NCBI GenBank assembly: GCA_030248295.1
Contig: JASANH010000523.1
Location: forward strand, 744,001-808,000
Direction: 5' to 3'
Source of the DNA: Mesodorylaimus sp. YZB2_4
Lineage: Eukaryota > Nematoda > Enoplea > Dorylaimida > Dorylaimidae
DNA length: 64,000 bases
The notes under the pieces were generated by a model. The model saw only the letters and a program-made list of their open reading frames with translations. It made no database searches and had not been told where the DNA came from. Both the position numbers and the translations under genes were made by a program. Shown in pieces: positions 9,953-62,980 of this stretch (position 1 is the stretch's first letter; each line of letters opens with the position of its first letter).

Positions 9953-12900
9953 ATGGGATCCGGCTCGTCGAAGAAGCAGACTCGGGACCACCGTCGACCC
10001 ATCAGGCAAGTGACCTCAACGACGGAAGCAGAAACCTCGCACGCGCATGCTCCATCGGCATCCGCAGGTAATGGCTTACACATTGGGAGGAACCTTATAT
10101 GGAAGTAGTACAGTAGAATAAAGGGCTCCTCTGGCCAGAATTGAGCTTATTCTCAGTCTTACTGATCCCGTGCTGCACATTCAATATATCTGGCCCATTC
10201 CACCAGCCTGTGGCAGCTTAATGCTATCGACTGCCTGGTTTTGCTTCCGCATCGCAAGTGGTTCGTTTAATCGTATGTTTTATATCACCGCCTTCTTTTA
10301 TCCCAGATAATAGTGTTTGTATTTGAGGTAATAGGAGATCTTGTTCTTAAAATAAAAAGGGGACAAAACACGCCCGAATCATTACTCGATACATTCAACG
10401 TTTCACAAATTATTTTTGTCGCAAGGAAGTGTTTTTATTTTCATTATATTCTAGTTCCGGTCTGCTTCTCCCCTTTCACCGTTTAATGAGCGCTGGCTGA
10501 AGCCTACCAGGCAGAGAAGAAAAGTAGCTGTGTCTTCCCTCAAGAGAAAATATGAGCTGCGAGAATCAGGGCGAGCCATTCCTGGGCAACTGTGTCTTCG
10601 TAAACACAATCGCTCTTTCGTAAGTTCTCGATGGTGTTTTCGCAGTTTCTACAAAATGTGGCTCATGTGCATTGCTCCAGGTCCTGTTGAGCAGAACTAG
10701 TTCTTGACAGTTTGACACTCTCTCGCAAATTTCAACGTGTTGTTGAAAAGTTCATTTTGTGTCGTGGAGGCTGCGTACTGCTTCGTCGCTGTGCCTTCAT
10801 AGTTCCCATGGTGCTGTATTCAGAAAGTGCAGGTGTATGAAGGCATTGCTGTGTCTCCTGCTGTTAGCTTCAGGCTATTGGGGGTCTGAAGGCGCTAATG
10901 ATATGCCCGTCATGAACGCCAATGCACGTTGGGGACAGGTGGCCTCGCAGCGCGCCAGTCTGGGCGACACTCCTGCCAGAAGCATGGATGGGCAGTTTTC
11001 GCTCCCAGCAGCTACTCGTCTTTCAACAGTGTCTGCTGCCGGCGCTAATTAGCTAGGTTTCATTCGTGCATTTGTGCTATTTATCTCGTGCTCTTATCAC
11101 ATTTTATCTACATTGCCCTACTGGTTAAGTCAACTACTTGCACCATTATTCGTTGCTTAGGCCGAGTATCGTCTCAAATTGCTGCTGGTGCTGGTAGGAA
11201 ACAAAGCAGCGGGAAAAGTGAGGATCAATTGAGTTCTGCCAACGGCAGCCGGTCAACGCCTGTCAACGCCGAGATAACTGCGATGGACGATCATGTCGAG
11301 ACTGTCCTGTGCAAGAAGGGAGACTTGAAGAATGGAGAGTAAGTGGCGTACATTTCGTCATGTTTGGTCCTAGCAATCCTCAGGTCGTCCTTCCGACATG
11401 TGGGAGTCAAACTATTCAAACCGTATGGCGCAATTCTTTTAGGATGCGAGAATTCACGGTAGAGCAGGCCAAAGTTCTTTTGGTGAAAGACAATGACGAG
11501 TTCCATGCGATCGGAGGCAAATGCACTCATTATGGCGCTGGGCTATCGAAAGGTGGGGAATAGATTATCTGACCTCCCATTTCATGTTGCGCGTTTCAGG
11601 TGTCTATTCGAACGGGTTCGTGCGCTGCCCGTGGCACGGGGCATGTTTCAATGTCCAGACGGGAGACATCGAGGACTTCCCCGGTTTGGATTCGGTGCCG
11701 TGTTTTCAAGTTGGATGGTCGTATATTTGTAGCGACTGCGATTGTTGCAGTTGCATATTTTTAGGTAAAGCTAGAAGGCGACGATGTCAAACTGATTGCA
11801 TCAAAGGCGCAGTTGTCGGAGAGCAAGCATGTGAAGACGATGTGCAGTATGAATGAGACTGCGGCCAAGACTGAAATTGTGGTCATTGTTGGTGGAGGTA
11901 AGAATTTCTCGTGCCGATACTGAGGAAACGGGACGGAGGCTCGCGGGCCGGTAAATCATTTCGTGTAAAGTGTTTCCCTTCACCCTTGAGTGCGCATAAG
12001 CGTTTGGTGATGTGGTAAAACATGAACATGAACAGGGCTGACTGATGTCGAGCCTATGTTGCACAAGTTCGAGCGGGGTTAGGAAAACTAGGTGCTTGAA
12101 ATGCGTGAATCCTATCAAGCCCCCTTTCAGTCTGATCGTGGTGAGTGAGTCCGATACTTGGGTATTTGTGGGCTTCCTTGGTTTTAGGAGGAGCAGCGGC
12201 TGCATGCGCGGAATCATTGCGACAAAATAACTTCGCTGGTCGAGTCATACTGATCACGCAAGAGATTGCTTTGCCCTACGACCGACCTAAGCTGAGCAAG
12301 GTACATGGGTGCGTAACGGTGGAGACTGGTTGATGGCCCTTACCTTCTGGTTGTTAGAGCCCGGACGCGAATGTGGAAACCATACAGCTGCGAACGAAGG
12401 AATTTTACGAGAATAATCGGATTGAAGTCAGAATGGGCCAGCCAGTAAGCGTGCTTGATACCGGATGTTGAAAACTGTGCATCATAGCTTTCCGAGGGAA
12501 CGAGTCCGTATATCTCGCGGAATTTTCCTTGCTTTCTCCCCCATCCACAGTTTGCAGCAGTTTTCATTGGCAGGTCACTGGGGTGAAGTTCGAGGAGAAA
12601 CTGGTCGTGCTAGCTGATCAATCCGTCCAGCAATACAAGTACTTGGTCATAGCGACTGGTGGAAAGTATGTGCATTGAAATCAGTTTCTTTGGCATTCCT
12701 TCCGGCATTTTTTTTTTCTTTCAGGCCACGGACTTTGATTTGCCCAGGGTCAAATTTGCACCATGTCTACTACTTACGTTCGCCCACGGATGGCAAAGCC
12801 TTAGCGGCTGCGGTCCCAGAAAAACACGTGGTGGTTGTGGGGTCGTCTTTCATCGGTGAGTCCACAGCTGAAGGCTAGATTAGCTGCTTCACTTTATGCG

Positions 12901-14134: not shown

Positions 14135-14988
14135 TAATGTATGTAGTCATGACTCCTTCACTGCGCGTACAGTATTCTGTGCCTATCATTTTGGTTATCG
14201 GACTAGACAAGGTAGATCTGTTAGGACAAATTGATACGTACTGTACGTCAATGTACAGTGATAACGAGAAGGCACGATAAGATTCTGTAGGATATGAATC
14301 AGTACTGAATGTTGATACTATGTATTGCTAGGAACCTGTTTGGGTTTTCTTTTTCTGCATTGTTAGGAGGTGAGACGGTTGAGGGGTTTAAGACTTAAGA
14401 TCTTTTGGAATGACGTCGTGAGAGGTTCGGAGAGTAAAAAGAGTTTAGTTGAGAGACGGTCGCTTTTACGCGCAGTGTATAGCTAGCGCACGGCGAGAAA
14501 CGTTGCAACTGACGACTGGTGAGACAAATTTCTCACAAATTTCTAATTTTGGAAACCAGTAGCAGAGTTTCGTGGTATTTGACGATCGAAGAAAATCGGG
14601 AAATGCATCATGTCAGTGACAAGTGAAAGGTGGATGGAAAGATTTTCGTGCTTTTCATTCGAGAAAGAGAAACCGCATTAGGATGCCTATCTTTGAGCAA
14701 ATGCGCAGAGCTAAAGGTTTGAACAACGATGGCCCGAATGCAACGGGAGCTAGACAGGCTATCATTTTTACATGAATGACCAAACAGCAATGCAGGAATC
14801 AAACGGAGATGATCAGTGCTGATTTTTTCTTCCTTCGCGTTATGTAAGGAAAGTGCAACAGACGAACATGCCACAAGGAACTGTAAAGTCAGAATGCCCT
14901 CTAAATTTATGTAAGTCAGTTATGTCTTCTGCGATTGGGAAGAGCAGCCGAGCGGCCAGTCCGATTGAACTTTAGCTCGTATGTTGGA
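14135..14988. other. Intergenic, no gene seen
   Basis: No supported exon or repeat was found. A minus-strand frame at 14608-14874 has no recognisable motif. A 17-codon upstream frame (ATG at 14922, stop before 14980) precedes the MSP gene and could be a uORF if transcription starts above it. Confidence 0.45.
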
Positions 14989-15620
14989 ATGGCGTCACAG
15001 AATCCATCGATGCCGTCGTGGGTGAAAAACGTGAGGGTCGAGCCGGCGAACGGGTTGGAATTAAGCGAGGAGCAACCGTCCAGAATCACGATCGTCAATG
15101 ATAGCAATATCTCCCTGGCCTTCAAGCTTCGCACAACGCGAAATCAAGACGTGAAGCCAGAGTTCGGTGCTGGTAAACTTCTTGCCGATGGAGGCAGGGT
15201 CGATTTCGCCGTTCGCTACAGAGCCATACCCGGCGCCCGACCCTTTCACGCGGAGGATCGCGTCACCATCCTAATGCAAGAGTGCCCAAAAGACGTCAAG
15301 GTGAGCCGCTCTCCTCTATTTTTTCCAGCTTATTCGTGCTTGTCTAACGATAAATCTCACGCATCGATGAATAATTCATGTCATCTGACCCTTGCTAGTC
15401 ATTATGTTTCCGGTTTTTTTAGTCGGTTGTTCGATACTGGAAGGAGAACCGGGCGAATCATGTGCATCGTTTTGTGATTCCGTTGAAACCGTCACCATCG
15501 AGCAGCCCTACCGGAACGGGTGCCGAGAGTCCTACTGAAGAAGATGCAGAAGGCGAGAGCGATGAGGATGAGGATGAGGACGAGGACGAAGAAGAGGAGA
15601 GTGAAGAGGAGGACGAGTGA
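14989..15620 (+). CDS. MSP-domain protein with acidic tail
   Basis: Two exons, 14989-15300 and 15423-15620, give 169 residues. Residues about 15-125 form an MSP (major sperm protein) immunoglobulin-like fold: VRVEPANGLEL, then ITIVNDSNISLAFKLRTT, then VDFAVRYRAIPGARPFHAED. The TT-N step of the fold is typical of MSP/VAP domains. The last 45 or so residues are Ser/Pro then almost all Glu/Asp. There is no transmembrane segment, so it is not a VAP. Small single-MSP proteins are common in nematodes, where they act in sperm motility or as vesicle adaptors; which applies here is unknown. The start is the first in-frame ATG. A polyadenylation hexamer lies at 15847-15852. Confidence 0.85.
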
Positions 15621-16290: not shown

Positions 16291-17628
16291 TCATTTCTGA
16301 AAAGAGGTGAAGTTAAAAGCCCATAATAAGAACCAAAAAGAACGGGTTACCTTGTCAAAGACACGAGAGTCAGCCAGCCTGAAACGAAACAAGGATATTG
16401 TCTCACAAATGCAGTGAAGAAATGACAGTAACTTACGCCATCGTTCCCAGAGCCACTGTTCCGCTGGGAGCCATTCCTTTCGCTGCGGTCGTCTTAAAGT
16501 GTCCATAAAACCAATGAAGGCAATTTATGAAAAACACAGATATGGTGGTCATAACTACCTTCTTATCAAACACTCGAGAATCAGCGAACCTAAAAAAGTC
16601 AAAGTAATATGGGATGTTTGATAAGGGTGAATATAATCTTACGCCATGGTGTCCTGCGGGGCGGCCCCGTGCACAGACTTCTTTTTCTCTTTCTTTTTTG
16701 TCGGACCGCTGGACTTGCCAGTCTGCGCAGAGAAAGAAGAAGTCACGAAATCTACACACCTCGTCGTGGTCCTCTTACCTTATCAAACACACGCGAATCA
16801 GCAAATCTAAAGAAAAGGTATAAAGGTCAGGCTTATGCTTCTAACAGGAGATAATGAAAACTTACGCCATCGTGTCCTGCGGCGCTGCCCCTTGTGTTTT
16901 TTTCTTCGGCGGAGTTTTCGTGGTCAGTTTCGTCGTCGCCTGCTGAAATCGTAGTTACTGTACTATCAATCGAATCAAGCATGATACAACTGGCTTACTT
17001 TCTTCGACTTATCGAAAACATCTGAATCTGCCATGGCCCTGGAACAAAATTGTGATATGGGTAAAAAGTATTTTGCCAGAGCCCGTACATAGTCATCAAG
17101 TTGTGCGCCTCCTCTTTCGGAACTGGAACCAAGGCCTTTGGTGATCCTTTCTTGGACGCCGGAGCTACTGTGGTCGGTACCGTAGACTGAGTCGTTTTTC
17201 CGGATACAGCTGATGATGTTGGCGTCCCTGCTGATTCCTGAAACCACAGCAGGGACAAACTGTACTACGGTATGTACAGTATACTTCTTGCCCCTGGCTG
17301 GTCCCTGGCGCGGCAGCAGCAACGGCAGCTAGCTCGTTACCTTTGTGGTGCCTCGACCAGAGGGCATATCGTCGGGCTTGGTGGAAACTTGTCGTGACTG
17401 CTCCGACTCAGGGAGCGATGGCGGCGGGGGCACGTTCGCGTCCGCTTCTTCTTGCATTCGTTTTTTCGTTTCGTCACCTCTGCAGCAGCCGCACAAGACC
17501 ACAACCAGAATTCCGACCACGTTCACCAACACCACCGTCAGGTAGGCGAATACTGACCATTCAGTTTGATTCGTGAGAGGGAAGCTGTACGACGGGTCAA
17601 CGATCTCTTTTTCGAATAACGGCGCCAT
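16291..17628 (-). CDS. Novel one-pass membrane protein with repeated VFDK modules
   Basis: Ten minus-strand exons: 17341-17628, 17089-17237, 16999-17038, 16866-16942, 16779-16806, 16643-16722, 16559-16589, 16437-16492, 16351-16378, 16291-16296. They close in frame at 260 residues. One transmembrane segment lies near residues 24-48 (FAYLTVVLVNVVGILVVVL, then CGCC), after a short N-terminus with an NQT glycosylation site. The rest is predicted cytoplasmic, rich in Lys, Pro, Thr and Ser. It carries four repeats: one MADSDVFDK and then FADSRVFDK, FADSRVFDK and LADSRVFDK. Linkers contain Lys runs and APQDTMA-like ends. I do not recognise the family. Repeated charged motifs suggest a multivalent adaptor tail, which is inference. 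The exon 2 donor (GTACGG) is weak but preserves the frame and the repeat. Confidence 0.75.
16351..17038 (-). repeat. Tandem duplicated exon pairs, micro-exons of 28-40 nt
   Basis: Within the membrane-protein gene, a linker exon ending in phase 2 alternates with a micro-exon encoding [A/M]-x-A-D-S-x-V-F-D-K. Micro-exons are 16999-17038 (40 nt), 16779-16806 (28), 16559-16589 (31) and 16351-16378 (28). Linker exons 16866-16942, 16643-16722 and 16437-16492 all end ATG-GC. Identical phases mean units can be added or skipped without a frameshift. Confidence 0.8.
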
Positions 17629-18434
17629 TGCAGGGAGCGACCAGCTCGTCACTAGAGGGCAGTGGGTTCTCTGGTCACCCTTATCTCTTATCCTTTATGT
17701 CTGGAAGAAAATGTAAAGCGGAGCTGTACAAGGCGGGTGGCGGGGTGGGAGGGTGTTAGCACTACAGGAATGTAAAATTGATGTGCTGCAAGTGATACTG
17801 TAGTGGCGTCTTTGTATACATCAATCCCTCTATGTATCACTCAAAGTTGTGCCGATCAGGTATATGGTACTGTAGAAAAATTAGACACGCACTCATGATG
17901 CAAAATCTCAATTTAGGAATTCGATCAAACACTGAATTTATTGTCAAGCTCGGCTGGAAACCGAATATGATCGGTGAGACTGTGGTGACGCAGAGAGCTC
18001 AGAGAGCTCGTGACGCAGAAATGTGAACTTTATGACTGGAGGTGGTAATGTTTCCTCGCCATCGGCCTTCAAAGGAGAGACTATGTCACTGACAATGAGT
18101 GCTGTAGTTTTGAAAGCAAGAGCAAATTTATTACTGGTGTAGAGGCTCGACTGGCAGTCGATACTCTGCACGGAGCCGGCAGCTGGGAGCGTCACCCATC
18201 AGGATGACGTTTCAGCCATGTACTAGGTCGGAAGACTTGGTAGGCTGCTCTGGGGTTTTTGCGTGGTGCAAAAGCTCCACCGGTCACTCCCTCCAGTTAT
18301 ACGGACCCAGTCATGTTACACTGCGACACTTGATGACGAAACGAGTTTACTGCTGAAGCTTCATTTAAGCATGCACTACATTGTATTGCACGTTTCTTAC
18401 AAACTGATGAAGGCACATACAAATCAGCTGTTCA
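17629..18434. other. Between convergent-reading minus-strand genes; mostly empty
   Basis: A candidate trans-splice acceptor for the membrane-protein gene (minus strand, forward 17652-17654) lies 23 bases before its ATG. The remainder should hold its promoter and the 3' UTR of the astacin gene. I found no other gene or repeat. Confidence 0.45.
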
Positions 18435-61932: not shown

Positions 61933-62980
61933 GATGACCGAGTCAGCCCGAGAACACGCCGCACTACGCACTTCCGCTTGAACCAATAGCTGTTGCCGAG
62001 GAGTAGAAGGGGGTGCTTAGTGCTCGGGTAGTGTAAAGTCAGGCCCAGTGTACTGCACGGGCATCCTCCCATCACGAAGGCAGATGTTGCCAGCTTTAGC
62101 TGCGCAGGAGCTTTGAGAACTTTGTAATATATTTTTTAAATTTTTTGGGCCTAAGTCTTTTGACTCTAGCCTTCCAGCAGTCAGCGATGAGCGATGAGTG
62201 AAGTCGTCTCGTATGAACATGATGAAGCTGGAAAGTAACGTAGCAAAAAAATAGCAGCAAAAAAGAAACCTTCTAAGCATTGCTGTGCGGGGACCAGCAC
62301 ACAGCGGTGCCCCTCTGCGCGTCTCCACTAGGAGCATCTATACGCGAGGACATCCTGGACTGTACATTGACTTCCTCGGACAATGGCGGGCGGGCTTTGA
62401 ACCCTGTCGGTGTTACACAGCCGAGACTGTCTCCTCGTTTGGTGTCCGTCTCTCCACTCGGAGAATCTCGACGGTCCAGGGTGAGTCACCCACAGGCTGC
62501 ACTGCAAGGTCAGCGAGGGTTTAGGGTTCGCAAACCGACCTCCATCACCAGGGATCGAACCTGATACGAGTCCAGCCACTCACTACTAAGGCAACACGGT
62601 AAGACGAATGCCCAACCGAATGCACCATCGTAGCCGCTCTTTGAAATATATGGATGGGCCTATTTTACATGGTACGAAGCACGGAGACACGACGCGGTTA
62701 TTTGGGTTACTTGCACATCGTTCAAAAAATTTAGGGGAATTCATGCCTTTAGTAAAAATCAAGCTAGAACATACGATATTATTTGCTGCTTCGCAAGCGA
62801 GAACACAGTGATTATTTTAAATTAGCGCATTTTCAGGTTTTGCGGATGCTTATATCACAATGTAATGAATTAATCGGCTGCGTGCGCGCTGAACCCCTTC
62901 GAAAAACGAAAAAAGAAAAGAAAAAGAAACGAAAAATTCAGAATTGGAAAAGTAGACTCAATTTTGTTTTGGTTGTAAAC
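61933..62980. other. Intergenic with tRNA-like remnant
   Basis: On the minus strand near 62525-62605 the sequence contains CAGGTTCGATCCCTGGTG, a perfect B box with a pairing stem. An A-box-like TAGTAGTGAGTGG lies too close upstream for a normal tRNA. It is probably a degenerate tRNA or a different SINE. No protein gene was recognised. The end includes an in-frame upstream extension of NDUFA2 (from 62846). Confidence 0.4.

Follow-up and report, generated by a model that had tools for sequence, protein, structure and literature searches.

Introduction

The DUF236 proteins (PF03057) are the closest described relatives of the protein reported here. According to PMC8480184, DUF236 genes usually contain several repeat units, are largely restricted to nematodes and are products of a recent lineage-specific expansion; of C. 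elegans and Pristionchus, at least one shows a peak of their expression where MSPs are expressed. A survey of C. elegans (PMC3534327) gives 13 DUF236 genes encoding 200-320 amino acids, for 10 of which a signal peptide is predicted. Other systems are similar in a single respect. The micro-exon genes (MEG) of schistosomes have exons that are mostly multiples of three and introns that range in length from about 100 bases to almost 5000, and their products are secreted (PMC10526429). The NSPD sperm peptides of Caenorhabditis are a multigene family of largely disordered proteins with a short repeat (PMC6081950), and regulated neuronal microexons are 27 nt or shorter (PMC8378409).

We have analyzed a window of 64,000 nucleotides from Mesodorylaimus sp. 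YZB2_4 (GCA_030248295.1, contig JASANH010000523.1, positions 744,001 to 808,000 of the forward strand), which contains a gene with micro-exons at 16291..17628. Like the DUF236 proteins, of which F27C1.3 of C. elegans is an example, its product is small and has a repeated small unit, and two DUF236-matching genes of this genome, of which one passes the Pfam threshold when scored as an exon peptide, have the same front end of MAP, membrane segment and CxCC. Unlike DUF236, the repeats have no PF03057 match, the motif is TMAxADSxVFDK, and the copies are split over micro-exons. The schistosome genes resemble it in spreading one protein over several very short exons; here, however, the micro-exons are 1 mod 3 in length, the introns span 50-103 bases, and a membrane segment is present in the product. 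The likeness to NSPD is that of a nematode multigene family, in our case a putative sperm one, with a short repeat; however, a membrane segment and a VFDK motif are not mentioned for NSPD in the excerpts of PMC6081950. The micro-exons, of 28, 28, 31 and 40 nt, also differ from the regulated neuronal class. DUF236-type sperm repeat proteins are a known kind, and the form with a split VFDK motif is one variant of it. Six motif strings were absent from the literature that we searched, and no VFDK form was found described there under DUF236 or under sperm families.

Results and discussion

Gene structure

The gene is on the minus strand, with its ATG at 17628 and its stop codon ending at 16291. 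It has 10 exons encoding 260 amino acids, and 9/9 introns are GT-AG. Exon 1 (17341..17628), which is based on the gene model, hydropathy and the paralogs, encodes the MAP N-terminus, a membrane segment at residues 30-48, the sequence CGCC, and KKRMQEEADANVPPPP. The mean hydropathy of the membrane segment is 2.81, and that of the best tail window is 0.92. There is one K/R before this segment and there are four within the next 20 residues, which suggests, by the positive-inside rule, that the tail is cytoplasmic. In the gene model, exon 2 (17089..17237) is a linker that ends with NLMT and the AT of the next codon, and it is followed by micro-exon 1 (16999..17038; 40 nt), which gives (M)AMADSDVFDKSKK, that is, MADSDVFDK and then SKK. 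Exon 4 (16866..16942), assigned from the gene model and the paralog, is a Lys-rich linker ending in GAAPQDTMA, and its CAGCAG acceptor places its start at 16942 or 16939. Micro-exon 2 (16779..16806; 28 nt; FADSRVFDK), micro-exon 3 (16559..16589; 31 nt; FADSRVFDKK) and micro-exon 4 (16351..16378; 28 nt; LADSRVFDK) come from the gene model and from the pattern of an acceptor followed by the motif core. The linkers between them are exon 6 (16643..16722), Lys-rich and again ending in GAAPQDTMA, and exon 8 (16437..16492), which encodes TTAAKGMAPSGTVALGTMA; the last exon (16291..16296) adds K and the stop codon, all from the gene model and on the minus strand. The NAGNAG acceptor of exon 4 at 16939-16942 could add or drop one Gln. 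In the paralog on contig C2, an AG is present only at the second place, equivalent to 16939; our model of that paralog used the first place, and hence has a non-AG acceptor there.

All four micro-exons begin in phase 2 and end in phase 0, and exon 2 and linkers 4, 6 and 8 run from phase 0 to phase 2. The intron interrupts a longer motif, T-M-A-x-A-D-S-x-V-F-D-K, in its third codon in copies 2-4 and in its second codon in copy 1. Since the intron falls inside this 12-residue motif, the conserved unit spans the end of a linker and the micro-exon after it. The first-pass annotation had described micro-exons with xADSxVFDK alternating with linker exons, all in matching phase, and this description is borne out, with exact coordinates. 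Its further statement that copies can be skipped without a frameshift fails. Every single micro-exon skip (4/4 tested) shifts the frame, because of the change from phase 2 to phase 0 across each micro-exon, and so does the skipping of linker 4, 6 or 8 alone. With copy 1 skipped, the protein ends at residue 151, and with copy 2, 3 or 4 skipped there is no stop within the modelled exons. Only the linker and micro-exon pairs are neutral: all six neighbouring pairs tested can be removed with the frame kept.

Paralog and selection

The paralog at G000:C2:1739180-1740474 has kept all ten exons, with lengths that differ by multiples of three. Identity between the two genes is 76-90% in exons 1 to 9, and the micro-exons have 36/40, 25/28, 27/31 and 25/28 bases in common; for the introns, with the splice ends trimmed, 190 of 343 aligned bases are identical. 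The whole-gene dN/dS is 0.19, at a dS of 0.63. It is 0.28 in exon 1 and 0.21 in the linkers, and falls to 0.013 in the motif, where there is 1.0 nonsynonymous difference per 112.7 sites and there are 14 synonymous differences per 31.3 sites. From the exon-for-exon paralog, these ratios and the excess of motif matches in the genome described below, it is very probable that the gene codes for a protein and is under purifying selection, which is strongest on the motif. The difference between motif and linkers supports a reading in which the motif would be recognized by a binding surface and the linkers would act as spacers.

The individual marks of the copies, SKK after copy 1 and KK after copy 3, are identical in both paralogs; thus, there is no sign of copy turnover since that duplication. 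This bears on the proposal that the gene is an isoform generator, in which alternative skipping of micro-exons would vary the number of docking motifs. The frame-neutral pairs would permit such variation, and paralogs do differ in copy number. However, the single skips shift the frame, all four copies and their quirks have been retained at this dS, and other members of the family have the motif unsplit, so we consider this proposal very unlikely.

The motif family

The 145-Mb assembly contains 23 exact matches to the pattern ADSx[VI]FDK, 4 of them in the window gene, and 1 to the reversed pattern, so the motif is not a product of chance. A variant pattern (A, then D/E/K/N/Q/H, Ser or similar, N/K, and VFDK) has 19 matches versus 0 for its reverse, and shares 4 matches with the first pattern. 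The pattern of an acceptor joined to the micro-exon core gives 17 matches versus 2; 16 of the 17 belong to 8 family genes, and the remaining one is at C94:12922. Altogether, the motif is found, split or unsplit, at 24 loci of the assembly, with 1 to 4 copies at the loci that were read. It is unsplit in C3:1315, apparently a one-exon gene with three copies, and in C85 and C94, and both states occur together in the C8 gene. Because these other family members carry the motif unsplit, micro-exon coding is only one gene form and does not characterize the motif in general.

The front end of the protein identifies relatives without the use of the motif. Exon 1 alone has 18 matches at E up to 10 in the assembly, one of which is the gene itself. 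Of the 17 others, 8 are motif loci, and in 9 the patterns detected no motif. Six of the best 7 matches, the gene included, are motif loci (5/6 of the others); in C7:1048, which is among these best matches, there was no motif in the 2.5 kb examined. The family proteins whose start was found have a recurrent architecture: M-A-P and a short N-terminal segment, one membrane segment, Cys, Lys/Arg, often PPPP, and then the repeat tail. The MAP N-terminus is present in 10/10 hand-picked family sequences, and C85:124 starts with MPP. The earlier suggestion of a membrane protein with a Lys-rich tail and several conserved motif copies is supported, with a single membrane segment and four copies, and the suggestion that copy number varies holds between family members.

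The loci with AQSNVFDK (L043, L045, L048, L049, L051 and L053) are on six contigs (C7, C14, C67, C85, C105 and C145) and look nearly alike around the motif in the short stretches compared; two of them are 3-4 kb from an MSP gene. They are perhaps a recent amplification. Clustering with MSP genes was also considered as evidence and set aside as weak: 4 of the 24 motif loci lie within 30 kb of MSP genes, versus 0.86 expected (P about 0.01), but the two closest loci are related copies.

Relation to DUF236

The whole window protein gave no PF03057 match in Pfam, where its two matches are far under the cut-off (best E 0.38), and a PDB search with it gave 0 matches. When the genome was searched with PF03057, 9 matches were obtained; none was above the cut-off, and the best E was 0.0085. 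Two of the 9 were read, on C69 and C93, and both encode proteins with MAP, a membrane segment and CACC or CGCC. The C69 protein begins with MAPLWK and continues through the membrane segment to CACCNGDD and, further on, NYQTLHGLGDDVFKE; its exon peptide scores 25.9 bits against PF03057 (cut-off 25; E 8.7e-6), and the locus is also a weak match to exon 1 (E 0.0045). The C93 protein (E 0.142 in the genome search) runs from MAPVGST through the membrane segment and CGCC to NYRSLVGVDNNFEPSNKAK. The window protein thus has the same front end as the DUF236-matching genes at 2/2 loci read, out of 9 matches. The first-pass annotation had not been able to place the family, and this common N-terminal architecture does not support leaving it unplaced: the gene is DUF236-related by architecture, but is not filed as a member of PF03057.

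The repeat itself is harder to connect. The window protein has four repeat units, which are VFDK units and were not scored as DUF236, and 0/8 VFDK-motif peptides match PF03057. With a VFDK profile made from a hand-picked motif list, the DUF236 motif of C69 is only second within its own locus, and its score is equalled or beaten by 24 of 110,249 background 12-mers, some of which come from unspliced frames of the window gene. These results are what would be expected from convergence, in which a front end of MAP, membrane segment and Cys carries two unrelated short tail motifs, the VFDK unit does not come from the DUF236 repeat, and both kinds may still be sperm proteins. Against convergence, YKTLHMADSMVFDK (C78) and YRTLHLADSRVFDK (C151) appear by eye to be intermediate, with Y.TLH and VF in common with YQTLHGLGDDVFKE (C69), and these two motif loci have the same front end as C69. 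We consider convergence unlikely, and regard descent of the VFDK unit from a DUF236 repeat as the likelier origin.

The upstream element

A scan for words common to the upstream regions of the family found CTTTACA at -66 to -121 in 6/13, versus a background of 2% per 250 bases; the word was picked post hoc among all 7-mers in these regions. In the window gene, it is at 17712..17718 on the minus strand, -90 from the ATG, and it is also present upstream of MSP genes. In MSP genes, which had no part in the discovery, CTTTACA occurs in 5/16 versus a background of 4% per 500 bases, and the reverse complement TGTAAAG occurs in several others of this first set. Counted in either orientation and up to 330 bases, the element is present in 7/13 family genes (6/13 are without it), 12/16 MSP genes and 5/8 hold-out MSP genes, with a background of 4.45%, and in 0/6 histone controls. 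In 1000 dinucleotide shuffles of each of the family, MSP and hold-out sets, the observed counts were never reached (means 0.5, 0.6 and 0.25). A further gene, the DUF236-matching gene on C93, which had not been used earlier, has GACTTTACACTGCG with CTTTACA at -107.

The 13 family genes are 12 of the 24 motif loci and the motif-less relative C7:1048; they include both the window gene and its C2 paralog, although these are related, and the upstream length was limited to 142 bases for C7:1048 and 217 for C3:1772. The other motif loci (C2:2241, C3:1490, C3:1757, C7:1144, C14, C16:811, C67, C85:13, C94, C105, C145 and C193) are outside the set because the start codon was not identified, because they are copies of others, or because they were not sought. 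The MSP upstream regions are 24 (16 and 8) of 102 MSP-domain matches, chosen to spread over contigs; several look like recent copies, so these counts are not all independent. The 102 matches by themselves point to a nematode. The histone regions are 6 of 19 matches, and the MSP and histone regions were measured from the domain match rather than the start codon. In the 24 MSP upstream regions (L067-L090), the element is present in 17, in 15 of which it is 116-186 bases before the MSP-domain match, and L079 and L080 have facing copies. GATAA/TTATC shows no excess upstream of the family, with 2, 3 and 3 of 13 genes within 100, 150 and 200 bases. Trans-splicing was of no use as evidence, because no exact match to the canonical nematode SL1 sequence, 22 bases long, is present in the assembly of 145 Mb.

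The window contains 9 occurrences of the word, including the one at -90 of the window gene and those before two other genes. The convergent neighbour is an MSP-domain gene with an acidic tail at 14989..15620 on the plus strand (exons 14989-15300 and 15423-15620; PF00635 at 18.2 bits, under the cut-off of 25.9), with TGTAAAG, the element in the other orientation, at 14882..14888 on the plus strand, -107 from its ATG. An SH2 gene runs on the minus strand from 61932 to about 58500; it has two SH2 pieces that pass the Pfam cut-off, and frames that look kinase-like by eye. The element, in CTTTACACT, is at 62032-62038, at about -106 from the ATG of this gene, which may encode a sperm non-receptor tyrosine kinase, as does SPE-8 of C. 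elegans. More copies of TGTAAAG are at 11964, 29539 and 43693. CTTTACA is a candidate sperm promoter element of this nematode, and its presence is the best available evidence that the window gene would be expressed with the MSPs.

Proposed function

Taken together, we consider it probable that the window gene encodes a diverged DUF236-related sperm membrane protein that displays several copies of a docking motif. In this proposal, the short N-terminus, the single membrane helix and the juxtamembrane Cys cluster would anchor the protein, and the basic, low-complexity cytoplasmic tail would display four copies of T[ML]AxADSxVFDK. Each copy would dock the same partner, to give a multivalent membrane tether. 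With a phase-2 intron near the start of the motif, a linker and its micro-exon would form a natural duplication unit, and the copies may have arisen by duplication of such pairs. MSP-fibre proteins or sperm kinases are guesses for the partner, because it is only co-expression that points to them.

Could the tail be a direct ligand of MSP or MSP-fibre proteins, in the way that an FFAT motif is recognized by the MSP domain of VAP, which is related? The common upstream element and the convergent MSP-domain neighbour would fit such an interaction, but shared expression is not binding. Furthermore, the FFAT core is EFFDAxE, with an aromatic residue at position 2 and a small residue at 5, and, by eye, SxVFDK does not match this core, since it is without the aromatic residue at 2 and the small residue at 5. 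We regard direct binding as quite improbable. A broader version of the docking proposal, also a long shot, is that, on the membrane side, the VFDK repeats dock a cytoskeletal or kinase partner of sperm, such as MSP-fibre proteins, so that the family would tether the MSP machinery to the membrane with an affinity set by repeat number, and that all these genes, MSPs included, are under one lineage-specific ACTTTACACT promoter code that replaces the GATA element of C. elegans.

In print, the DUF236 proteins are sperm-region proteins of unknown function. The family described here provides a conserved 12-residue core with measurable constraint, split and unsplit gene forms of one motif, and a candidate promoter element that ties the family to the MSP genes. 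Together, these features make it possible to test what a neglected sperm family does and how sperm genes are controlled outside C. elegans.
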